Source of the DNA: Citrus sinensis | Taxonomy: Eukaryota; Streptophyta; Magnoliopsida; Sapindales; Rutaceae | Assembly (NCBI RefSeq): GCF_022201045.2 | Contig: NC_068560.1 | Coordinates: 26,181,501-26,245,500, forward strand | DNA: 64,000 nucleotides | Direction: 5' to 3' | Shown: piece by piece, positions 37,621 to 55,900 of the stretch | Layout: each line of letters begins with the position of its first letter | How positions within the stretch are numbered: position 1 is the first letter of the stretch | Position numbers and translations under genes: made by a program | The notes under the pieces: generated by a model | What the model was told of the DNA's origin: nothing | Seen by the model: the letters and a program-made list of their open reading frames with translations, nothing else | Database searches by the model: none

Positions 37621-40600
37621 TCAAGAAAATGGATTCATAGATGCTTGTATTTCTTCCAGTGTTCGCCCTTTGGTCTCTGGTACTAGCTTTGCTACGAACA
37701 GAACAGTTAAGCCGCAAATGGCTGAGAATGCAAAGAATGTTCCTGGTGAATTACAAGAGAGAAAATGAAAGAAAGATATCAGAATATGACAGTGTATGGT
37801 TCGTGTATCATATGATAAACTCAAGAAAACGAGAGGAATTGAACCAAAGTACTACCTGTGGAGCTCCATTTCATTAGAAAATTGAAAGTGAAAGAGATAA
37901 TCCAAGACCCTAACCAGCTAACCAATGTTACAAGGCTTCCAGCTGAACCTTTCATGTTTATAGGGAATACCTGAAGTGGTAAAATTAATGAATTCAGTTG
38001 AGTTACCTGTCTTAGTCGCATATTATAGATATTTCATTTTGAACACCATCAATCAAAATATGCAGAGTTAAATCTTTAATGTACCTCTGACATTATAACC
38101 CAGGGTATTCCTCCCATGCCTAATGAGAATGATCCTGTGTATACCTAATCACATGTTCGAAAATATGAACAAAGATATTATTTCAGCTACCAATCTGCAA
38201 AATCTATAACTTAAAGCAATACTTTTGGATAGCACGTAATCAATCCGATGAGGGTCAGAGCAAATGGTCTTAAGTTTTGAGAAGTCAGAGAAAAGCCTTC
38301 CTTGTATTCATTTTTATTTTCGTACATAGCAAGAGGAAAATAATATATAATTTTTTTTTTCCAAGCAAATATTCATTACCAGCACTCCAACTAGTGCTAG
38401 AAAAGGAGTTGCCTTTATCCACTGTTGAAGGTCCTGTAAAGGAGAAAGTTTGTATATTCTCAATGGAGATTTAAGAATGGGGAAACGGGAAAGAACGATC
38501 CGACAGATAATTAAACTTTAGTTTAGAACCTGGAAGAGAAATGACAAAGCGGCAAGGAGGCAACCCAAACATGTTCCAGCTGCAGACACCTGGAAGCATT
38601 AGCAGACTTCAGCATCCGCCATTAGTACAACTACATCCAAACATGGAACATATTCTTTTGCTTCTTACCAACAGAAGTGGCCGTCGTCCAGATTTATCCA
38701 TTAAAAGTACTCCCAACAGTGTCATTGGAATCTGCAGAAGCCAATTTCCAATGCTTTAGAAAAGCCTCTACCAGATTCCAAAAATTTAATTACAGCTAAG
38801 AGTCAATTACCTGAATAACAACCATTGCGATCATCCCAATACTACCAGAAAACCCTGTCATACAGTCAGAGATTCGAGCATTCATTTTCTCTCATTCCTT
38901 TTTATATCCCATTGACTGTACGAAGTATTCATAATTGGGCCTTCACTTACCAGCTGATATGAATATGGAACTTGCATAAAATGCAATTCCATTGACCCCT
39001 CCAAATTGTTGCAATACCATCAAGCCAACACCAACCTTAAAAGAATTTTAAATGCTTCAAAAAATAAAACAATTTATACAATAATTTGTCCAAAGGAAAA
39101 TTGCCTCAGCTAGATTGATTTTAAGAAGCTCACAATGAGGGAATGTGCGTATTTCCTCTGGAACAACTCAAGAATGCCACCTTCAGAAAGCCTCTCAAGG
39201 GTTTCTGTGTACTCCTATAAAATGAAGCAAAGCCACTCAGTTGTGGTTCTTACTCCTACCAGATGAATCAAATATTTCATATAAAATTAAGAAATTACTC
39301 TAATCTCGGCTGCTTCTTCAGAAATATCAGCATCTGCCCCCCTAAGGCGCTGCAGGGCGGCTTCAGATTCTATTCCTTTACCAGTCTTTGCCTGCAAATA
39401 ATTCATAAACCGTTGATGTTAATGTAAACCCCAAATTTAAAGAACCTATAAAATAATGCATGCGACTCACCAGCCATCTTGGTGATTCTGGGATGAAGCA
39501 TAGACCTATAAGCTGTACTAGACATGGAATAGTTCCTGAAATCAAAATAAAAGGATTCCCTTGTTACAGACACCCCTCAAATTACAATTCAACACCATAG
39601 GAACAGACGAAATTACCAATCAGAGCTAAGATCCGCCAGTTCAGAAAAGCTCCAATGAGATATGTCATTGACACGCCAATACATATCATCAACTGCAAGA
39701 GCAAAGATTAGATATTTAAGGATGCAATGATAATGGCTTGAACATTTTATAGAGATTAGTTCACCTGATGGACTGTTGTAAATCCTCCTCGAAGATTTTT
39801 GGGTGTGATTTCAGCTATATATACAGGTACCTGTGTGTGAGAATTAGAATAATCTTTTATCTGCTTCCTCAGCGAGTAACTGAACTTGAATTGCAATGCT
39901 CTGAAAAAATTACCACGTAAGAAAGGAGACCCATCCCATATCCCACCAACAGCCTTCCGAGATCTAGCCACCAAGCAGCCTTTCACAAACACTGAACTTT
40001 CAACATTGTGAACAATTGAGATTTAAGTATGAGAAGATAAGCAAAAGAAATCTTTGAAACATATACCTTTGAGAATACAATTATAACCCATCCAATGATG
40101 CAAACTATGTCTGAGAAGCCCATTGTCTGCTTCCACAAGGCACAAGGCAACCAAAAGATAAAAAAACAGACATTTGAAAGTAAATCAGAATGGAAACTCA
40201 ACAACATGGCCGGATACAACAATGGATTAGTAAGAAATACTTACACCTCTTCGGCCAATGTAATCCGCTATTTTCCCACTCATTATTGCACCTATCATAG
40301 CTCCGATCGTCAATATTGAACCGAAAAGTGAATACTGCAGATGAACGAGAAGAGAAAACTTATAAAGGGCATCCACAATGCGAAGAAACAAAGAGAAGCA
40401 AAACGGTATGTGTCAACTTATACTGAGCAAATACAGAGCAAAATTCATAATTTATATGCCTACCTCCGCGACAGAAAGACCAAGATCATTGGTTATTCCA
40501 GACTGAGCAGGTGATGAATACCCAATCTACAAACCAATCACAAAATTTTAGTCAATCCCAGAATTCAGACGACCAAGCAGATTCTGATCCTACATTTTCA

Positions 40601-40975
40601 ACTCAAGAAAGAAACAAAAGGTTTGCTGTTTATTCAATTAGTTTCTACTCACTATCAGACTAAAAAAGTTGCTACTCCCCTTATAATTCTCAGACTTATT
40701 ACATTCTTGAACATTCTCAATTACATTAGAGAGATACACAATTCATGCATCAAATACATTATATTAATAAATTTTGTGACTGGGTACTGTAGAATCAAGA
40801 GCGTACTACTTACAGCAGAACCAAAAACATAGGAACCACAGACAGCAACGAAAGTGCTGAGCACAACAGCACTTGTGGCAGAAGCACTTCCACTTCCACT
40901 CTCACCGCCACTACTGCCACCACCATGTACCTGAGACTTCTCCTTAAGCAAAGAGCTCGATAACCCTTCTTCCAT
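37621..40975 (-). CDS. ERD6-like monosaccharide transporter (gene 1), 474 aa
   Basis: MFS sugar:H+ transporter, probably exporting sugars from the vacuole. Eighteen exons on minus: 40814-40975, 40464-40526, 40245-40334, 40067-40126, 39914-39979, 39765-39830, 39617-39692, 39471-39535, 39299-39391, 39134-39214, 38951-39035, 38811-38854, 38669-38731, 38530-38589, 38380-38433, 38085-38144, 37856-37970, 37621-37742. All are GT-AG and join in frame. Marks are GRR after span 2 ([11 protein letters not shown]), [21 protein letters not shown] before the central loop, FGRR-type SGRRPLLL, and the final [12 protein letters not shown]. Twelve spans are expected. The N-tail [13 protein letters not shown] holds LSSSLL, the LxxxLL pattern reported to send Arabidopsis ESL1 to the vacuole membrane. 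It is head-to-head with gene 2, 2.1 kb away. Confidence 0.95.
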
Positions 40976-43049: not shown

Positions 43050-46000
43050 ATGGAGAATCCTCAACAAAACTCGGAGGAAGGATTAATGCCAAAGTCTCCA
43101 CCTCCTCAGCCGAATCCTGCAATAGTTGCAAATGAAGTTGGTGAGGGCAGTGGCTTCCCAGAGAGTGATAAATCTTCAGCCACGCCAGTTGTTGTTCTGA
43201 GCACCTTGGTAGCCATCTGTGGTTCGTTTGCTTATGGCTGCACTGTGAGTATCATTCCACTGTCATCGTATATGTTCTTGTTTCTTGATCCTAATCTGGC
43301 TTTAAGTGTTTTTTTTTTTTTTTAAGTGTTTGTGTTTTGTGGAGAAATTAATAATTCTAATGAAATTTGAGTCTTCAAATTGATTTCCAATATTTCTATT
43401 CTATCTCAATCGTGTGGCTGGTATTAATTAAGTAAGCGTACATGGCTGGCAACTCTGACGATCTTATGTTTATTATATTTATATTTTTGTTAATTTAAAT
43501 AGGTTAGTGGGTGACTTTAGAGACGATCGTTGGTCAAAACTTTCAACATCACATGTTTGAAGGCAAGTGGGTTATTTATCGTAAGCATAAAAGTCATCTA
43601 TTATAATATATACTAATATCCGGAATAGGCGTAAAGATTTCTTGTTCTTCGGCAGTTGTCATTCCATTTTTTTCTTTTTAAAAATTTCATAGTAGTTGTC
43701 AAAACTTTTTTTTTCTTTTTTTTTTTTCATTTGCCTCTCGCGCTTTCATTCAAGAAAAATAATCATGGGGACATCAGAAAGCTTGAACGAAGGACTTCCA
43801 TTTATTGTGCGAAGGCCTGCGATTACTAATAATGAAGTTAGTAATGTTAGTGGCCTGAAAGAAAGTGATTCTTCAGCTACACCTGCTGTTATTTTCAGTA
43901 CCTTGGTAGCCGTGTGCGGTTCATTTGCTTATGGCTGTGCTGTAAGTTTGATTGTTGTTTTGCTGCCATCAGAGCAAATCAATATATTTTACTTGGAAGA
44001 CTAATCTCTATATGCTTGAAGATAATAGACGTTCAGGAAGCAGTTTTGATTAAAATCACTCTCATCATAGGCCACTAGTCAAACAAATAGCTTTTCATTG
44101 GCTGCAGTAATGGCTGGTTGATTGATCGATCGATTGATTATTGTTTTCAGATTGGATATTCATCACCTGCTGAGTCTGGAATGAGGGCAGACCTGCGACT
44201 CTCTGTGACACAAGTAAGTTGACCAAGCCCAAGTTGTCCATGAATGCAGAATCTAGAAATAAATAAAGAAAATCATATAAACTTTGGCAAGAATTTGTCA
44301 CTCTTGATACACACAGGCACATGCACACACGCACACACAACATCTATCAATGTTTATGCAGGCTAACTTAATTGATCATTTCTATTCTATGATCTTATAT
44401 ATTTTGATTCCTATAATTGACCATATCTTTCCGTTATTCTTCTCATTCTGCAGTATTCAGTATTTGGCTCCGTATTGACAGTCGGAGGAATAATAGGGTC
44501 ATTAGTAAATGGGAAAATAGCAGACCTCGTTGGTCGAAGACGTGTAAGTCATTCAATCTTCTGCATAATGTCTCACTGGATAGTATGAATTTTCAAAATT
44601 TTGAATAGTATGATTTTTCTTCTACCTTTATTCATAGTGTTTCAATTAACTGCAAGTGCAACAGGCTATGTGGCTATCGGAGTTATTCTGTATTGTTGGG
44701 TGGCTGGCAGTAGCATTCTCCAAGGTTTTTTTCCTTTAGCTTCTCAGTGTCGTTACAGTCATGTTTGGTTGGCTGCCTACATGAAAACTGTACTTAGAAT
44801 TTTATTTGGAATTAAATTGTTCCTTTTGGGTTCAAGATGCATATCTAGCTATATCTACTTGTAAAATGGTATGTCGATAGGCTGTAACTTACTTCAGTAC
44901 TTGTTGACAGCATGCTTGGTCACTTTATCTTGGACGATTTTCACTTGGGATTGGACTTGTACTTATGGCTTATGTGGTAAGTGATGTGAACAATTTCGTG
45001 GTTGCTGAATTCATGTGTGAGGCATCTGACAGCATTTGCATAATTGTTGCAAGACAGATACCTGTATATATCGCAGAAATAACACCGAAGAACATCCGGG
45101 GAGCATTTACAGCAGCTTTTCAGGTATATCTATGTAACTTAATTACATTGCTTGTTTAACTTATTATTAATGAGTATTTACTTTGTCATCAACTCTGCAG
45201 TTCTTGCTTACTTCTGGTCTTTCAGTAATGTACTTAGTGGGTACTGTTGTTTCCTGGCGAGCCTTGGCTCTAATTGGTAGCTTCTGCTTCCCCTGCTATT
45301 GATTTCATTTGCTTAATTGCTAACCCTTTAAGATCCTGATGTTTCTTTTTTATTTGATTTTCAGCTGCTGTTCCATGTCTGTTGCAAATTATTGGTTTGT
45401 TCTTCATTCCAGAGTCTCCAAGATGGCTGGTTAGTCCAAGTCCATAAACTTTTTTCCTGGTGGAATTTAATTTTGCAAAAAGCAGAAACTGGAGTCCCTA
45501 GCTTTTTGTTTAAGCTCTTGTTACTATGCTTGTGAACTAAGAGCATATTAAAATTAATGTGTATTTCTCTTTGCAGGCAAAGGTTGGTAGAGAAAAAGAG
45601 CTAGAAACTACTCTACAGCGCCTTAGGGGAAAGAATGCGGATATTTCAATGGAATCTGCTCACATCAGAGTAAAACTTTTAACTCTAATGTTTGAATATC
45701 CAATAAAAAGAAAATACATGAAAATAACTATATACCAATGGCACAATACAAGGAATGAGCATTCCATTATTATCTTACAGGAATATACGCAGACCTTTGA
45801 GATGGACTCAAAAGTTGGAATTTTTTACCTCTTTCAGCGAAAATACGCTTATCCACTCGTAGTGAGTCTTTAATACTCATATTTATACTTTTGTGATTTC
45901 GTTAATTGCCAGTTCTATGATTTTTAGATTAGATTGTTTAATTGGTTTAGGTTGGAGTTGGATTATCAGCAATGCAACCATTGTTAGGAGCAACTGCAAT

Positions 46001-47256
46001 TCAATACTATGCCAGCTACATATTTTCAGAAGCAGGTAAACAACAACATTTTGTACTACTTCATAGAACTCATGGATTTTGAAGGAAATAACAGTATGAA
46101 TCTTGTGTTTGTAATAGATTTTTCGACAAAAATTGGGAGTATATCCTTGGCTATCATTCAGGTAATTGACCATCAATCAAACATGGGATTTTTCCATTTG
46201 AAATACTCAGGAACATACAATTTCTTTTACAGCTTCCGGTTATTGGTGCATCGGTGCTCCTGACCGATAGATTTGGAAGAAGACCACTTCTTTTGGTAAA
46301 CATTTCAAAGAAACATATTCATCCCAAAATTATTAATTCAGAAGGTTGGCTAATTTATATGGCTAATTTATGGTGAAGTAATATTTATACAAATTCATCT
46401 ATTTGCAGGCTTCTACAATTGTGATGTGCTTAAGTCTTGCTATTATAGCTACGGCATTCGGCTTGCAGGTTCTTCTGAAACAAAATTTTTACACTTCTGC
46501 AGTTCTAATTTGCAATTCTCTTTGGACATATTTATGATTATTGCTTAAAATTTTTATGTGCAGGGCACACATCGTTGGAATGAGGTTACTTCAGTGCTGG
46601 TGTACGTTGGCATAATGGTAATATAATCGATGTAGAAAAGGAAAACTTGTCTCTATATGTTATGAGAGCTTACTTACATTAGAGGGTTTGCTGTAAAGAT
46701 TCTTTTTTATTGTTTTGTCTATCAATATGGAGCAAAAAGTGACTAATTGACACTGAATCTGCAATCAGGGGTTTAGTGTAGGTTACTCAATAGGCTTGTC
46801 AGGATTACCGAGTGTCGTAATGGCTGAGGTATATGACTACGTGATCTAGCTCTACATCTTTTCATGAATATCTCAACCAGAGTCGATACATGAGCCATTG
46901 AACTTCCATTTTCAGATATTTCCCATAAACATGAAAGGTTTAGCAGGAAGCCTGGTGATTTTCATCCACCACTGCATCAATTGGACCATTACATTCACAT
47001 TCCATTTCATGATGGAATGGAGCAAAACAGGTACCTGATACCCCTGATGCTTATACATTTTCCATTTCACAATCCTCTTTCTTCTGTGTTGCTCTCTAGT
47101 TACAAGCCTGTGTTGGCTGCTCTGGCAGGAACATTTTCGATATTCTGGGTCATATGCGCCACAGGTGTTGCGTTTGTTACATTCCTGGTGCCGGAGACCA
47201 AGGGACGAACACTTGAAGAAATACAAGCATCAATTACAAAGCTTTCTGGGAGATAA
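43050..47256 (+). CDS. ERD6-like monosaccharide transporter (gene 2), two alternative first exons
   Basis: First exon 1a is 43050-43244 and alternative 1b is 43765-43941. Shared exons are 44151-44213, 44454-44543, 44665-44724, 44911-44976, 45058-45123, 45201-45276, 45365-45429, 45577-45669, 45781-45861, 45951-46035, 46118-46161, 46233-46295, 46409-46468, 46564-46617, 46769-46828, 46916-47030 and 47129-47256. Both forms read through in frame (487 or 481 aa). Exon sizes from exon 2 to 17 equal those of gene 1, so the genes are close paralogues. Marks are [36 protein letters not shown] and [12 protein letters not shown]. The N-tails lack the LxxxLL of gene 1. One oddity is FIHHCINW where gene 1 has LVSWLGSW in span 11. 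The gene looks whole and functional. Confidence 0.94.
43594..43615 (+). promoter_or_regulatory. Candidate TATA region for exon 1b of gene 2
   Basis: The string atctattataatatatacta is found here and, identical, about 130 bases before exon 1b of gene 3 (49386-49405). It is TATA-like and lies about 150-167 bases upstream of the 1b start codon, inside what would be an intron if exon 1a is used. Conservation in otherwise diverged DNA supports a separate promoter. Confidence 0.5.
43765..43941 (+). CDS. Alternative first exon 1b of ERD6-like gene 2
   Basis: Begins ATGGGGACATCAGAAAGC and encodes 59 residues ([13 protein letters not shown] ... [16 protein letters not shown]), ending at a gtaagt donor in the same phase as exon 1a. 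The last 20 residues are the start of span 1 and closely match exon 1a ([17 protein letters not shown]); the tail before them differs. There is no usable acceptor before it that would join it behind exon 1a without repeating span 1, so the two exons should be mutually exclusive. Confidence 0.85.
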
Positions 47257-48698
47257 ATCAACATCACTCCACTGCAAGTGTAATAATAACCTGGTTTGGT
47301 TGGACTGCAAGTGTAAACTCCGCTCATAGGATGTGCTTGGTGCGACGCCCAGGATTCGACTGTACTGGATTAAAATGTATTAAGTTTAATACGGTACTAG
47401 ATTATAATCTCTATTAAAAAGTTTTAGTAATAATAGATTAATATTATTTGTGTACTTTATATTCTTATTAATTAATAAAATATTATTATCATTATTATCA
47501 TCATTATCATCATCATTATCATTATCATTATCATTCTCATTATCATTATCATTATCATCACTCCGGGCTAATGTTAATCGCTGACAATTTCTTTGTTGTC
47601 ATAGAAACCAAAGATAAATTTGTAGGGTCCAGTGATCATTTAAAAAAAAAAAAATAGAGGCTTTTTCCTAGCCGCACGAGTTAGTGGAAAATGATGGGCC
47701 CGGCCAGTTATTATTGCTGGGTTCTGGTAGTCTCCAAAGTTAGTTAATCCAGGCCCAACCAGTGGACCGAGCCGAAATTACAGTTAGCCTTTCCTTGGGT
47801 TTTCCGTCATTTCCATACCATTGAAACTCAAAGATTTTTATTTTATTTTCTTACTTAGCAGAAAAATGATTGTTGTTGAAACTTTTTCTCTTCACATGCA
47901 CAGCTTGCATGGAAAGTGATGCCGCATTGATTGTTTATTTATTTATTTATTTCAAATACTGATACGTTGCAATCAAAAGCCTAATGATTAAAGATATATG
48001 TCCAATCTGCATAAGATAAGAGTGGGACGGGAAGCCATACATATTACCCACATGATGAGTGTTTGGCTTTAGGATGGTGTTTATTAACATGTCTGCATGT
48101 AACTCTCACTAATTAGTATTTCTTCTTTTTATCATTTTTTTTTTAAAAGATAAGAGAATAGATAAACCTTGAGTTTATTTTTTTAAATTACTCGACCGCG
48201 TTCTTAGAGACAATATATATATATACCAACTATTTCGGATAATTAATTCTTGTAAGTTAACATGGTTCAGCTGGAAGCCAATATTTCTGCTCTTCGATTG
48301 TCCCCCCACTATTTTTTTTTTTTAATTACTTGAGGTTATTAGTTAGAACACAATTCATATTTTGTGAGACTCAGATAATTACTGAAAATAGTATTTTATA
48401 AAGAGGAAATTTTCCTTCCATATACTCAATTATACAATATAATTAAAAAAAAATTATCTCTCCATATTTTTTTTGAGGGGTTTAAATTGTGAGGACAATA
48501 ACCTTAATTATTGGGCCTAAAGTCAAGTAGCTTATTGTTCCTAGTAAAATTAAAATTAAAGTTTTTTTCTATTATCATAATATTGAAAAAACAAATTGTC
48601 AGGTGGGCTCTATGCAGTCGCATCATTTCAACTGTTTTTTTATAATTCCAATAATGCAGTGTTCTTTCTTTCACTTGCTCCTGTGAAAGAATTAGGAC
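47257..48698. other. Intergenic between ERD6-like genes 2 and 3
   Basis: Holds the gene 2 3' UTR, a (ATTATC)n microsatellite (about 47470-47562), a short (TTTA)n run near 47934-47952 and the gene 3 promoter. The leader cacttgctcctgtgaaa (about 48671-48687) matches the one before gene 2 exon 1a. Confidence 0.55.
47470..47562. repeat. (ATTATC)n/(ATC)n microsatellite
   Basis: Runs of attatc and atc units with a few changes over about 90 bases. It is likely length-variable between individuals. Confidence 0.9.
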
Positions 48699-51600
48699 AT
48701 GGAGAATCCAGAAAGCTTGGAGGAGGGACTAATAGCAAAGTCCTCACTTGCTCAGCCAAATCCTATAAAAATTACAAATGAAGTTGGTGAGCGCAGCGGC
48801 TTGCCAGGGAGTGACAATTCTTCAGCTACACCCGTTGTTGTTCTTAGCACCTTGGTAGCCATATGTGGTTCATTTGCTCATGGCTGTTCTGTAAGTAGCA
48901 TACCGTTATCATGCATGCTAGTTACTTTTTTTGTTTCTTGATCTTAAATGTGAAGAAGAAATGAGTAGATTACCATAAAATTGAGTTTTTTTATTAATTT
49001 TTAATTTTCTATCCTACCTACAATCATGTGATTGGTATTAGGTAAGCTTAGATGACAGGTCCAGTACTTTGATGTTAGATGGTGTGTATTTGTCAAATGT
49101 TTTTCACTTTCAGCAAACAGTGGAATAGTGTATTATGGTGGCTTACCAACTTGAGCAAATGGGATTGTTTCAAAGTTTCATTCTTGTTTTGAAATGCAGC
49201 TCAATTATCAATTACCAATCAACCGTTACTTTAAGCCAACGGAATAGGATCTTATGTCAATATGTTTAACATTAACATATATGTGTTGTTGCTTGGTGAC
49301 TTTAGAGAATAGAGATAAGCATTAATCAAAATTTTCATCATCAAATACATGAAACAGGTGGACTATCCTAATCATAAAAAAAATAATCTATTATAATATA
49401 TACTAGAAATTCAAATGCGTATAAAGATTTCTTCTGCGGCTGTCATTCCAATTTCTTATTTCATAGTTGTTGAATGCTGCTTTTTTTCCATTGTCCCTCT
49501 TTCGCTCAAGAAAAATAATGATGGAGACATCAGAAAGCTTGGAGGAAGGACTAATTCCGAATCCTCCACTTCTTGAGCCAACGCCTATGATCACCAATGA
49601 AATTGGTAATGGCGGTGGCATGTCTGAAAGTGATTTTTCTACTACACCTGCTGTTGTTTTCAGCACCTTGGTGGCCATATGCGGCTCATTTACTTATGGC
49701 TGTGCTGTAAGATCCATTGCTGTTTTTTTGCTGTCAGAGCAAGTCAATACATTTTTCTTGCAAGATTTATCTCTAAATGCTTGAAGATAGGAGGCTTTCA
49801 GGAAGCAGTTTTGAGTGAAATCACTTTCATCATAAGCTACTAGTCAAAATATTAGCTTTTCATTGACCGCAATAGATTGATTGATTGTTGTTTTCAGGTT
49901 GGATATTCATCACCTGCTGAGTCTGGAATGAGGGCAGACCTGGGACTCTCAGTGACACAAGTAAGTTGAGGAAGCCCAAGTTATTCATGAACACAGAACG
50001 TTAAAATAAATAAATAAATTCATATAAACTTTGGCCAGAATATGTCACTCTTGATGCACACACGTACACACAACATCTATTATTGTGTATGCAGATTCAC
50101 TTAGTTGATCATCACTATTATATGATCTTATACATTTTGAGTCCTATAATTGACCATGGCTTTCCCTTGTTCTTCTAATTCTGCAGTACTCAGTTTTTGG
50201 TTCAGTATTGACATTTGGAGGAATAATAGGTTCATTAGTAAATGGGAAAATAGCAGACGTCACTGGTCGAAGGGGTGTAAGTCGGTCGATCTTCCGTTTT
50301 ATGTCTCAATGAATAGTATGAAATTTCTTTTACCCTTCTCAATAGTATTTAATTAACTGCTAGTGCAACAGGCAATGTGGCTCTCTGAGTTATTCTGTAT
50401 TGTTGGGTGGCTGGCAATAGCATTCTCAAAGGTCTTTTTCCTTTAGCTTCTCTGCATCATCACAATCATGCTTGATGTGGCTGCCTGCATGAAAACTGTA
50501 CTTAGAATTTTATTTGGAATTAAATGGTCCTTTTCGTGTTCAAGTTGCATAACAAGCTCTATCTACTATTCAAATGGTCTGTCAATAGGCTATAATTTAC
50601 TTCAGTATTTGTTCATAGGATGTTTGGTCACTATATCTTGGACGATTTTCTCTTGGGATTGGACTTGCAATTATTGCTTATGTGGTAAGTGATGTGAACA
50701 ATTTCATGGTTGCTTAATTCACGTGTGAGGCATCTCACAGCATTTGCATCATTGTTCCAAGACAGATACCAGTATATGTCGCAGAAATAACACCCAAGAA
50801 CATCCGGGGAGCATTTACAGCTACTAATCAGGTATATATATCTCAATTATAATAATTAATATTACTTGTTTAACTTATATTTAATGAGCATTTACATTGT
50901 CATCAACTCTGCAGTTCTTGATTATGTCTGGTATGTCAGTAATGTATTTGGTGGGTACTATTGTTTCCTGGCGAGCCCTGGCTCTAATTGGTAGCTTCAG
51001 CTTGCCCTGCTTTTGATTTCATTTGCTTAATTGCGAAGCCCCTCAAGATTTCTGATGTTTCTTTGTCGTTTAATTTTCAGCTGCTGTTCCATGTCTGTTG
51101 CAAGTCGTTGGTTTGTTCTTCATTCCAGAGTCACCAAGATGGCTGGTGAGTCCAAATCAAAAGTTCATAATCTGCTTTCCTGGTGGCTTTTAATGTTGCA
51201 AAGCAGAAACTCGAGTCCTCAGCTTTTTGTTTAACCTCTTGTTACTATGCTTAGCTTTTTTGCTTAAGCTCTTGTTACTATGATTGTGAAACTAAGAGAA
51301 TATTAAAGTTAGTATGTATATTTATTTTCAGGCGAAGATTGGTAAAGAAAAAGAGCTAGAAGCTACTCTACAGAGCCTTAGGGGAAAGACTGCAGATATT
51401 TCTATGGAATCTGCTGACATCAGAGTAAAATTCCAGCTCTAATATTTGACTACTCAATAAATAGAAAACACATGAAGTATCTATAAATCTCTGGTACAGA
51501 ACAACCAATGAGCATCCCATATTACAGGATTACACGCAGACATTTGAGAAGGACTCGAAAGCTGGGATTTTTGATCTGTTTCAGCAGAAATATGCTTATT

Positions 51601-52959
51601 CACTCTCAGTAAGGCTACTTGTACTTTTTTTATATTTGTAAGCCCATTATATATCATATGTCCTATGATTTTACATTAGATTATTTAATTGGTTTAGGTT
51701 GGAGTTGGATTAATGGCATTGCAACCATTAGCTGGATCAGCTGCAATTGCATATTATGCCAGCTACATATTTGCAGCAGCTGGTAAATTGACAACATTTT
51801 GTACTATTTCGTAGAACTAATGAATATTGAAGGAAATGACAGTGTGGATTTTTGTTTGTAAAGATCTTTTGACAAACATTGGGAGTATATCAATGGCTAT
51901 CATTCAGGTAATTGACCATAAATCAAACGTAGGATTTTTCCATTTTAAATACTCAAGAACATACAATTTCTTTTACAGCTTCCGGCTATTGGAGTGTCCA
52001 TCCTGCTGACAGATAGATTTGGAAGAAGACCGCTTCTTTTGGTACACGTGTCAAAGAATTAAATTCATCCGAAAATTAATTGTTCAGTAGGATGGCCAAG
52101 TATGTATGTGTTTGTGTGTGTATATATATGTTCATATATTTGCAGGCTTCTACTATCGGGATGGGCTCAAGTCTCACTATTATAGCTTTGGCATTCGGCT
52201 TGCAGGTTCTTCTCTTACAAAAGTTTAGACACTTCTTCACTAGTTCTTACTTCTGTTTGAAATATTTTGATCATTGCTTAAAATATTTATGTGCAGGACA
52301 CCCATCTTTGGAATGATGCTACTCCAGTCCTTGTGTACATTGGCATAATGGTAATAGTCTCTATATATTGTGAGCTTACGGTAGAGGATTCTCTATAAAT
52401 AGTTTTTTTTATATATATATTTATTGTATAGTCTATCTAATTGGTGCAAAATATGACTGAATCTATGATCAGGGTTTCAGCATAGCTTATTCATTAGGCA
52501 TGGCAGGATTACCAAGTGTCATAATGTCAGAGGTAAATGACTACGTGATCTAGATCTACATCTTTTCGTGAATGTTCAACAGGAGTCGATAAATATTCCA
52601 TTGAACTTCAATATTTCAGATATTTCCTATAAACATCAAAGGCTCAGCAGGAAGCCTGGTGATTTTACTCCACAACTGCAGCAATTGGATAGTTACATAC
52701 ACTTTCCATTTCATGATGGAATGGAGCAGAACAGGCACCTGAAACCCCCCACCATATATGCTCATGCTATTTTCCACTTCACAATCCAATTTACTCTATC
52801 TTGCTCTCTAATTACAAGTCTGTGTTGGCTGCTATGGCAGGAACATTTTCTATATTCTGGGTCATTTGCGCCGCAGCCGTTGCATTCGTTGCATTTCTGG
52901 TGCCAGAGACCAAGGGACGAACACTCGAAGAAATTCAAATATCAATTACAAAGTTATAA
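48699..52959 (+). CDS. ERD6-like monosaccharide transporter (gene 3), two alternative first exons
   Basis: Tandem duplicate of gene 2. First exon 1a is 48699-48890 and alternative 1b is 49518-49706. Shared exons are 49898-49960, 50187-50276, 50372-50431, 50619-50684, 50766-50831, 50915-50990, 51081-51145, 51332-51424, 51528-51608, 51698-51782, 51864-51907, 51979-52041, 52146-52205, 52297-52350, 52473-52532, 52620-52734 and 52841-52959. Both forms are open (483 or 482 aa). Exon sizes are the same as in gene 2 except the first and last. Marks are [36 protein letters not shown] and [12 protein letters not shown]. The last intron begins gcacct rather than gtacct as in gene 2, so it depends on a GC donor with poor context. 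If it is not spliced, the C-terminus is lost. Otherwise the gene is whole. Confidence 0.92.
49384..49405 (+). promoter_or_regulatory. Candidate TATA region for exon 1b of gene 3
   Basis: Same atctattataatatatacta string as upstream of exon 1b in gene 2, here about 113-132 bases before the ATG at 49518. The flanking DNA is more diverged than this core. Confidence 0.5.
49518..49706 (+). CDS. Alternative first exon 1b of ERD6-like gene 3
   Basis: Begins ATGATGGAGACATCAGAAAG (either ATG could serve) and encodes 62-63 residues ending [16 protein letters not shown] at a gtaaga donor of the same phase as exon 1a. It is closer to exon 1b of gene 2 ([10 protein letters not shown] ... [11 protein letters not shown]) than to exon 1a of its own gene. 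The twin heads therefore predate the tandem duplication. Confidence 0.85.
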
Positions 52960-55900
52960 TAAATTTTATTACGGAACTCCACATTTGTCCAAACCATGCA
53001 TATGATCTTGGGGGCCAAATTTTAATAAAACTTTAGTATAACTGTATATGATCTTGGGAACCAAATTTAAAAAATGTTTGATTGCTGATGATGATGGTTA
53101 TTTATAATTAATAAAACATATAAACCGGATATGTGTTTAGCAATACATTTTTTTTTTTAATAGCAACACTCTTTGAATTTTAAAGTACTGTGTGCATAAT
53201 ACTTTATGAATTGATTATTGTAGCGTAGAACTTATAATATATTTTAAGAGATGTGACACAATTCATTAGATATTTATGTAATCACTTTTATGATTTACTT
53301 TCTAAAATTATTAGTGTAAAAAACACATTATTTTTTCAAGAATAAATAGGCGTATCTCATAACAAAATTTTCTTTATTTTTATAATTTATCGATAAAATG
53401 GCCAAAACCTGTTCACATTGTTTTCTTTTCTTCTTATTTATTTATTGCTATTATAGGACTTCCTTTTTTTTTTTCCTCACTTGGAAGACAGTACAAGTTT
53501 TAGGAAATGCCTCTCAGACATTTATGACGCTTGAATTTTAGAAACCAAAATGTAAATAGTTGTTATAATATAATACCGAAGAGGCCCTAATAAATATATG
53601 CATAAAATTTGCAATTCATGATTCAACCCCATTACATAGCTTTAGCAATTTAAACCTTGAGATTTTGGCAACAAAGCTGCGATGTGACTCTTCTTTAGCA
53701 ATCAATCAAAGCTTGGCGTGGCTTTATTTATTTGTTTCGTTGTCTAACTGTTTTTTGTCTTTATTGTACAGACGTTTACTAAAGTAGAAAGGTGGGGCTT
53801 TCAGCCTTTATTTAAGGGGACATCAATCATTCAGCAGTCATGGGCCATGATAGCAACGTAAAGCATTACCTCAATTTTCCTGCCCATCCCAAAAAGTCAC
53901 TTTCCCTTGAAGAAACTTTAAATCATCATGGAGAGATACTAGAAGAAAGCGCGAAGTGGGAGGAAACTATGAGGGTCAGTTTAGTAATATTATAATTTTA
54001 AAATGATTTCGCTAGTTGTGTGGTAAAAATAATTAATTGTGAAGAGAACCAGTCGAATGTTTGGTAAAATTTAATTTTAAAATTATTGTGAGTTTTAAAA
54101 GCAGTCGTATATATTTGATAAATCTTATTGTTAAACTATTATGAAAAAAATGATTGAGTTGAACATAATGTTGAATAAAATTTATTATTAAATACTATGC
54201 GGAGCACGTAATAAAGAAGATTACTTATAAATCATGATTCTTACACCAAAAACCTTAAATTGAAATACCTCAAATTTTATTAATCAAATCAACAAATCCA
54301 TAAATTTGATATTAAATATTTTCTCCCAAAGGGATAAATATTACAAAAGTTCCAAAAGTCTCTTATTCAGTTAGCAAAATTAAATAAATCTCTAACTTCA
54401 AAGATAAGCATGCTTCTCAAGAAAGCTACTCAATCTGCAAAAAGTAATGATTAAGGGTGAATCATCAAATTGGTGAGTAAAACCATTTCCAACGCACTAA
54501 GCTTATCAGGTATCAAAAATATTGCAAGCCTCCTTTTATCAAACCATATGTTGTAAATCATAAATTTCATAAAACGACTTATTACAACAAGATGACATAA
54601 AATTATATTAATTCAAAATATCAAAAGCATAGTTAATCATGGGAGCAAATCATATAACATGTATACAGAAAATAAAGTTAGCTAATGTCACACAGTGTCA
54701 CCTATACTTTCAGTAACTAGGACAGAAACAAAATTAAAATTAGAATATCGTATATATCTTCAGAACAAAAACCCAGTACTGATACATGACATATATATTG
54801 TATAATATGATTAGAATCAAAATCAAAATGACTGTGGATAATGAGCCAAAACATTTCAATTCATTTTTCATATGTAGAAACTTCCATGTAACACTTTGTA
54901 TTGTACGTGACATGCACTTCGGCCCTCTAGATGTGGCCCCCGCACAAATTTTCATAAGTAATCTTAATCATATATAGGAATCAAACATTCATATGAGATT
55001 CATAAAAGATCGTAATAAAGATTTAGACTTGCAAAATAAATTACATTCTAACAGTTTATAGACAATTTCATAAAAGATAATCTTTTAGCAAAATAAATTA
55101 TATATTAACAAGGCATATTTAATATTTTTTTAAACCACAAAAATAATAAAATTTTCAGATTTGAAAATATTTACATAAACTAATTTTGTAATGAAAATCA
55201 ATTAATTTTTAAGGAACTATAAAAATGTGTACTTATAGTAGTATTAAAATAATCATACATATCTAGTATATTAGAAATGAAATTACTTATAATAAAAGTA
55301 ATGATTTAAACAGACCTCTAACCCCTTAACAACCTCAAACACCTCAAACATCTTAAATAAATATAAGATTCAACTATTAACAACTTATTTGAAGAACTTG
55401 ATTTTCTAATTCATATCTTAGATTTATTGGGAGCAGCCTGATGCAACAAAATTCCCACGAATCTAAACTTGCCACGTTACCAACGTAGATGACAAGCTTT
55501 GTTCCTTTCCTTTTCATTGAATTAGGCATTCCCGCGCTATGTCACTCTACATATCGACTGAATTTTGTTCATTCAACATCATTGCATACTCCTTTAAACA
55601 AGGATAAAAAAAGAAAAGATATCCACCACAAATACAATGTGCCACTGGGGTCCTCTCTAAGTGCGTCCGGCATTTCACATCCGACATGATGGGGCACCTG
55701 GCACCCATGCAAGACATGAGTTATCCTGTGTTGTTAGTGCTCGAATTGAAACTTTAAAAATCAAATGACAGAGGACTACTATTGTATTACAAAAATGCCC
55801 TCTTCTTCCATCTAATCAATCAAACACATTCCTTCCATCTTGATTCCATCACTTCAAAGATTCAATTGCTTTAGCCACTCATAATAGGATTTCAATTCAG

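Follow-up and report, generated by a model that had tools for sequence, protein, structure and literature searches.

Candidate alternative first exons paired on a shared body in tandem ERD6-like sugar-transporter genes of Citrus sinensis

Alternative first exons on a shared transporter body are already known, as in human SLC2A11 (GLUT11), a sugar porter with three transcripts that are attributed to alternative promoter use (PMC7462842). Human SLC2A9 (GLUT9) has two isoforms distinguished solely by their N-termini, and the two differ in sorting (PMC3883675), and several human sugar porters are described as having targeting signals in the N-terminal tail (PMC7462842). In the plant ERD6-like (ESL) family, 18 exons constitute the commonest gene structure (50.49% of 515 genes) and tandem arrays are common, the Rutaceae being among the families named with ESL3c tandems (PMC8450595). 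To these systems we compare a stretch of 64,000 nucleotides of the Citrus sinensis genome (C5:26181501-26245500; hereafter the window), which belongs to a genome of about 300 Mb in 11 contigs. The window holds part of a tandem array that continues to about C5:26.38 Mb and whose members we take, from gene anatomy, to be ESL genes. Two of these, genes 2 and 3, are complete 18-exon genes, each with two alternative first exons or "heads" (1a and 1b) and one 17-exon body. For these genes and two further copies, mutually exclusive first exons served by two promoters and giving two proteins are, in our view, the best explanation and a reasonably probable one.

Two heads and one body in each of four genes

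Each of the first exons (Table 1) opens with its own ATG, encodes an N-tail of about 40 residues and the beginning of span 1, and closes on a phase-0 donor able to join the sole exon-2 acceptor. Every such gene thus presents two first exons with their own ATGs, equal donor phase and a single shared acceptor, which is the layout of alternative first exons. A preliminary description of the locus, made from the letters of the window, had placed the four heads of genes 2 and 3 at these positions with a single 17-exon body after each pair, and both statements hold: the heads begin with ATG, lack stops, have lengths that are multiples of 3 and end at GT donors, and a complete protein results from either head (487 or 481 amino acids in gene 2, 483 or 482 in gene 3). 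An error in the exon coordinates is ruled out by the ATG, frame, donors and complete joined proteins. The products match the Pfam Sugar_tr domain (PF00083) with E-values of 3.3e-81 (gene 2 with 1a) and 7.2e-81 (gene 3 with 1b), and the PDB matches of the gene 2 protein include GLUT and STP structures.

The copies of the array are denoted G1 (gene 1, on the minus strand), G2 and G3 within the window, and G5, G7, G8, G9 and the fragments F4 and F6 outside it. Two of the outside copies, 69 and 130 kb downstream of gene 3, are likewise twin-headed (G5, C5:26299355-26303621; G7, C5:26360260). Across G2, G3, G5 and G7 all eight heads are open and all four bodies are complete, with either head leading to a full protein; the statement that both heads have stayed open since the gene duplication therefore extends to four copies rather than two. 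The complete frames were obtained with acceptors set on AG for exons 15 and 16 in G3 and G5 and for exon 15 in G7. The body introns are GT-AG, with the sole exception of intron 17 of G3, G5 and G7, which starts with GC (GT in gene 2).

In the explanation that we favor, transcription would start separately upstream of 1a and of 1b. The 1a transcript would skip 1b, because the acceptors before 1b are weaker than the exon-2 acceptor (see below), and the resulting two proteins would be identical except for the cytosolic N-tail and the initial residues of span 1. As for its origin, 1a would once have been the head of a tandem neighbor whose body was lost by recombination within the array; its donor would then have been captured by the downstream gene and kept by selection. 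Use of both heads would let one plant gene produce such a pair of transporters, and a single-start gene model would conceal the twin heads.

Table 1. Features of the window (positions counted from its first nucleotide)
Feature	Position	Strand	Remarks
Gene 2 exon 1a	43050..43244	+	65 codons, 195 nt, open, phase 0, donor GTGAGT
Gene 2 exon 1b	43765..43941	+	59 codons, 177 nt, open, phase 0, donor GTAAGT
Gene 2 shared body, exons 2-18	44151..47256	+	17 exons, 1269 nt coding including stop, AG acceptors, GT donors
Gene 3 exon 1a	48699..48890	+	64 codons, 192 nt, open, phase 0, donor GTAAGT
Gene 3 exon 1b	49518..49706	+	63 codons, 189 nt, open, phase 0, donor GTAAGA
Gene 3 shared body, exons 2-18	49898..52962	+	intron 17 with GC donor; model closes on the second of two stops
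Putative 1b promoter/leader, gene 2	43510..43764	+	homologous to gene 3, 71% identity; holds ATCTATTATAATATATACTA at 43596
Putative 1b promoter/leader, gene 3	49295..49517	+	identical 20-mer ATCTATTATAATATATACTA at 49386
Gene 1	37637..40975	-	divergent ESL paralog, outgroup; single head at about 40814-40975, not twin-headed
Orphan first-exon relic downstream of gene 3	53900..53966	+	decayed; leader, ATG and about 40 nt; resembles single head F4b (C5:26265694)

Three further features touch the bodies and their surroundings. The GC donor after exon 17 of gene 3 lies at window position 52735, and weak use of it could alter the C-terminus. Exon 11 (window 45951-46035 in gene 2 and 51698-51782 in gene 3) encodes the span-7 segment, at which human GLUT1 has SQQLSGINAVFYY in its alignment with gene 2; sugar binding may be altered there. 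Just 3' of gene 2, a TATCAT hexamer is repeated in 13 copies (window 47481-47558).

Age and origin of the head pair

The noncoding DNA around the heads pairs 1a with 1a (43014-43294 matches 48666-48947) and 1b with 1b (43510-44251 matches 49295-49998). As aligned here, these flanks answer the question of head pairing more clearly than the coding tree. The latter, a codon-guided tree of 13 heads from which columns filled in under half of the rows were dropped (186 of 216 kept), has long outgroup branches and a weak root. It recovers the 1a exons as one clade (support 99/98) and groups gene 2's 1b with the 1a exons and the heads of F4 and G8 (95/94), apart from gene 3's 1b. The 1b exons are hence not united in it, which speaks against an orderly pairing; even so, a tree constrained to contain a 1b clade could not be rejected (p 0.125). 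The resemblance of like heads asserted in the preliminary description accordingly stands for 1a in both tree and flanks, and for 1b in the flanks but not in the coding tree. Independent duplication of the head in each gene was rejected, both when the two gene 2 heads were held together (approximately unbiased test, p 0.001) and when the six heads of G3, G5 and G7 were held together (p 0.0008). Synonymous divergence (dS) between 1a and 1b (0.72 in gene 2, 0.53 in gene 3) also exceeds that between the bodies of genes 2 and 3 (0.28). Together, the pairing of the flanks, the tree tests and the dS values indicate that the twin layout is older than the duplication that separated genes 2 and 3, as had been proposed.

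Beyond the twin-headed genes, a motif search detected seven other ESL heads, all of them single (G1, G9 and one in each of five other loci). At five further sugar-transporter loci this search found no head; it also misses the known heads of F4 and F6 and is thus not exhaustive. In the heads surveyed, the twin arrangement is confined to one clade of the array, and a tree of exons 4, 5, 7 and 8 that includes the G8 pseudogene did not separate the branches within the array.

The array contains several collapsed genes. At F4, a single head runs almost directly into the last part of exon 17 plus exon 18, and F6 is a near copy of this arrangement. G8 (C5:26370293-26374825) is a pseudogene: its head lacks the ATG, its exons 2-8 are decayed, and behind them comes a frameshifted set of exons 3-18 in which exon 12 was not recognizable; it is apparently a fusion of two genes. 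The orphan relic downstream of gene 3 scores 75 against the F4b head (shuffle maximum 27) but no better than shuffled sequence when compared with the heads of genes 2, 3 and 8. Exchange has also touched the heads themselves: G5 is a mosaic, being G7-type across both heads and G3-type from the end of exon 1b onward. The switch, a recent one, falls between 49685 and 49742 (gene 3 coordinates), a stretch of 57 bases that takes in the end of exon 1b; two sites to its left (48955 and 49614) and a few to its right show the contrary pattern. The order G3, G5, G7 with similar intervening blocks is what a single unequal crossover would be expected to leave. These blocks, whose two longest aligned stretches reach identities of 99.8% and 99.1%, nevertheless differ in content: one has about 15 kb of additional DNA, and the other about 23 kb of additional tandem repeat. 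Between F4 and G5, at about C5:26270600-26295700, lies a tandem repeat of about 25 kb with a period of about 121 bases as judged from match spacing; its counterpart in the sister block measures only about 2.2 kb.

Given that loss of a neighbor's body and exchange at the head both occur in this array, capture of 1a from a lost neighbor is the origin that we favor. The pair could instead have arisen by a small local duplication of the head, an origin compatible with any use of the two exons. A plain duplication of this kind would look much alike, which tells against the capture scenario, and a search at E 0.001, with no looser one made, found no body-exon relic between 1a and 1b. On the other side stand the repeated products of body deletion and fusion in the array and the switch at the head, and the heads of F4 and G8 group, weakly, with 1a rather than outside both heads (89/95). 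A shared leader is likewise not supported: the DNA just 5' of 1a does not match that just 5' of 1b within a gene above shuffle level (29 against a maximum of 30 in gene 2; 25 against a maximum of 35 in gene 3). We regard local duplication as a serious contender, albeit one with less than an even chance.

More broadly, we tentatively propose that recombination in the array strips neighbors down to their heads, which may be captured by the next gene as second first exons, and that later unequal crossovers at the end of 1b might place such head pairs in front of different bodies. The array would then evolve its N-tails, and with them perhaps membrane targeting, apart from the transport cores, and gene 2 would yield one isoform carrying the common tail element (see below) and one lacking it. 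Head capture in tandem arrays becomes testable through what look like its intermediates here, namely the orphan head, the head attached to the last exons, the fusion of two genes and the switch at the edge of 1b.

Evidence for the use of each head

The ratio of nonsynonymous to synonymous divergence (dN/dS) was computed between genes 2 and 3, with bootstrap replicates of zero or undefined dS dropped. This per-exon comparison, named in the preliminary description as a check, finds 1a constrained and 1b not separable from 1. Exon 1a has a dN/dS of 0.37 (bootstrap 0.15-0.87; 1.3% of replicates at or above 1), the same as the shared body (0.37). The part encoding span 1 has values of 0.08 in 1a and 0.42 in 1b, whereas the N-tails taken alone give 0.64 and 0.97, neither of which is separable from 1. 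The indels between the heads of genes 2 and 3 are all multiples of 3 (4/4, one being a doubled ATG), as against 12/40 in noncoding DNA. In simulations of neutral substitution (4000 runs), the ATG and frame of 1a survive in 23% of runs at a distance of 0.2, and at a distance of 0.39 a head stays open in 8-9%. We consider the evidence that exon 1a is translated to be moderate to good, and that for exon 1b to be suggestive.

Splice sites were scored with a simple matrix built on introns of this family (46 donors and 51 acceptors of the related genes 2, 3 and 7, with GC donors left out). In all four twin-headed copies, no AG within 200 nt 5' of 1b reaches the score of the exon-2 acceptor, which is 8.3 in gene 2 and 10.0-10.2 in the other three. 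We tried three kinds of 1a-to-1b join, namely at a CAAG near the ATG (four copies; 89 or 85 codons before the stop), at -110 (gene 2; 122 codons) and at -79 (G5 and G7; 72 codons). As every one of them reaches an early stop, a 1a transcript would have to splice to exon 2 to yield a transporter.

Several observations weigh against the use of both heads from two promoters. Six of the eight heads belong to the near-copies G3, G5 and G7 (dS among them 0 to 0.05); G5 and G7, as recent copies of gene 3 type, add little independent evidence, so that the independent comparison is that of gene 2 with gene 3. In this comparison, exon 1b has a dN/dS of 0.78 (bootstrap 0.31-1.99; 29% of replicates at or above 1) and hence no demonstrable amino-acid constraint. 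Upstream of 1a, the two genes align only to about -40; farther out the alignment scores 25, below the shuffle maximum of 27, which gives no support to a shared 1a promoter. The head donors are all weak in the family matrix (rank 1 to 8 of 46); a T before the GT, as in these donors, is found in the single heads of G1 and G9 too. Finally, the margin of the exon-2 acceptor is narrow in gene 2, where the AG at -110 of 1b scores 7.6 against 8.3, and the AG at -79 of 1b in G5 and G7 scores 8.5 against 10.0-10.2; with these competitors, splicing from 1a to 1b cannot be dismissed.

The 5' DNA of the heads bears on their promoters. The 255 nt 5' of gene 2's 1b align with gene 3, and ATCTATTATAATATATACTA is also present in G5 and G7. 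This 20-mer was rejected as evidence of constraint: the body introns hold four identical runs of at least 20, and the identity upstream of 1b is 71% as against 83% for the intron after 1b. Being no higher than neutral, the resemblance upstream of 1b thus shows homology and not constraint. The 1a promoters of genes 2 and 3, if both exist, would be largely different DNA. A strict word search for a TATA box 5' of the eight heads found TATAATT at -58 of 1a in G3, G5 and G7 only, and none upstream of gene 2's 1a or of any 1b head.

One alternative is that only 1a works as a first exon and that 1b is a passenger that merely happens to be still open. The difference in dN/dS between the two exons favors it, as do the 12-nt length difference and altered tail element of gene 2's 1b, and neutral substitution keeps the ATG and frame of 1b in 25% of the simulations at a distance of 0.2. 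Yet all three indels that distinguish the 1b exons of genes 2 and 3 have lengths divisible by 3, the doubled ATG among them, against the proportion of 12/40 in noncoding DNA, the 1b donors are GT in 4/4 copies, and 1b, the head adjoining the body, is also the one whose upstream DNA is shared over the greater length. We therefore hold this alternative to be unlikely. The converse, that only 1b works and 1a is left over from an upstream gene since deleted, draws on the further relic heads in the array and on the unalignable DNA beyond about -40 of 1a, but is distinctly improbable in view of the constraint on 1a, which equals that on the body and is strongest in its span-1 part, and of the retention of its ATG, frame and donor in 4/4 copies, where the orphan relic has by contrast decayed. 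Given this constraint, 1a need not be a mere relic even if it came from a lost neighbor. A single promoter 5' of 1a, with 1b as an alternatively included internal exon and an early-ending 1a-1b-2 RNA lowering expression, would account for the AGs behind pyrimidine-rich DNA before 1b (best scores 7.6 in gene 2 and 8.5 in G5 and G7) and for the stops in the tried joins, but it is very improbable, as gene 3 lacks such an acceptor (best score 4.3) and 1b has its own ATG and a coding part resembling the single heads of F4 and G8. Two promoters making two transporters, as first suggested for this locus, accordingly remain likely but unproven from the sequence.

Tail elements and comparison with known systems

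By eye, many ESL N-tails of this genome share an acidic and leucine element (EEGLM, EEGLI, EEGLL, REPLI, TEPLL or REPLM), with variants in G1 (EEGLS), at one other locus (EEPFI) and in gene 2's 1b (NEGLP). Arabidopsis ESL1 is said to be targeted to the tonoplast by an N-terminal leucine motif; a literature search for an LXXXLL tonoplast motif found no paper. Through the altered element of its 1b tail, one gene 2 isoform may be sorted differently from the other. In SLC2A9, basolateral sorting was unchanged after removal of a dileucine pair (PMC3883675). As that pair is not the sorting signal there, we treat a difference in targeting here as hypothetical and the tail element with caution.

The ESL survey removed potential isoforms before its analysis (PMC8450595), and the terms "first exon" and "alternative" have no occurrences in its main text or in that of PMC8415272. 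A literature search, with most subscription journals outside its scope, returned no report of alternative first exons for ERD6-like or plant sugar-transporter genes, nor any when widened to plants at large. The Citrus genes conform to the family in their Sugar_tr domain and in having one head plus 17 body exons in 4/4 copies, whichever head is counted. With SLC2A9 they would share an isoform difference limited to the N-terminus, and the dileucine result from that gene warns against over-reading the tail. In layout they resemble SLC2A11, where alternative first exons likewise stand before a shared transporter body; that gene is an animal one, and use of its first exons was established experimentally, whereas here such use is predicted from the DNA. 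In the UGT1A and clustered protocadherin loci, too, several duplicated first exons have a common set of downstream exons to which each is spliced. Those loci have far larger arrays of first exons, whereas the Citrus locus has two heads per gene in several tandem copies.

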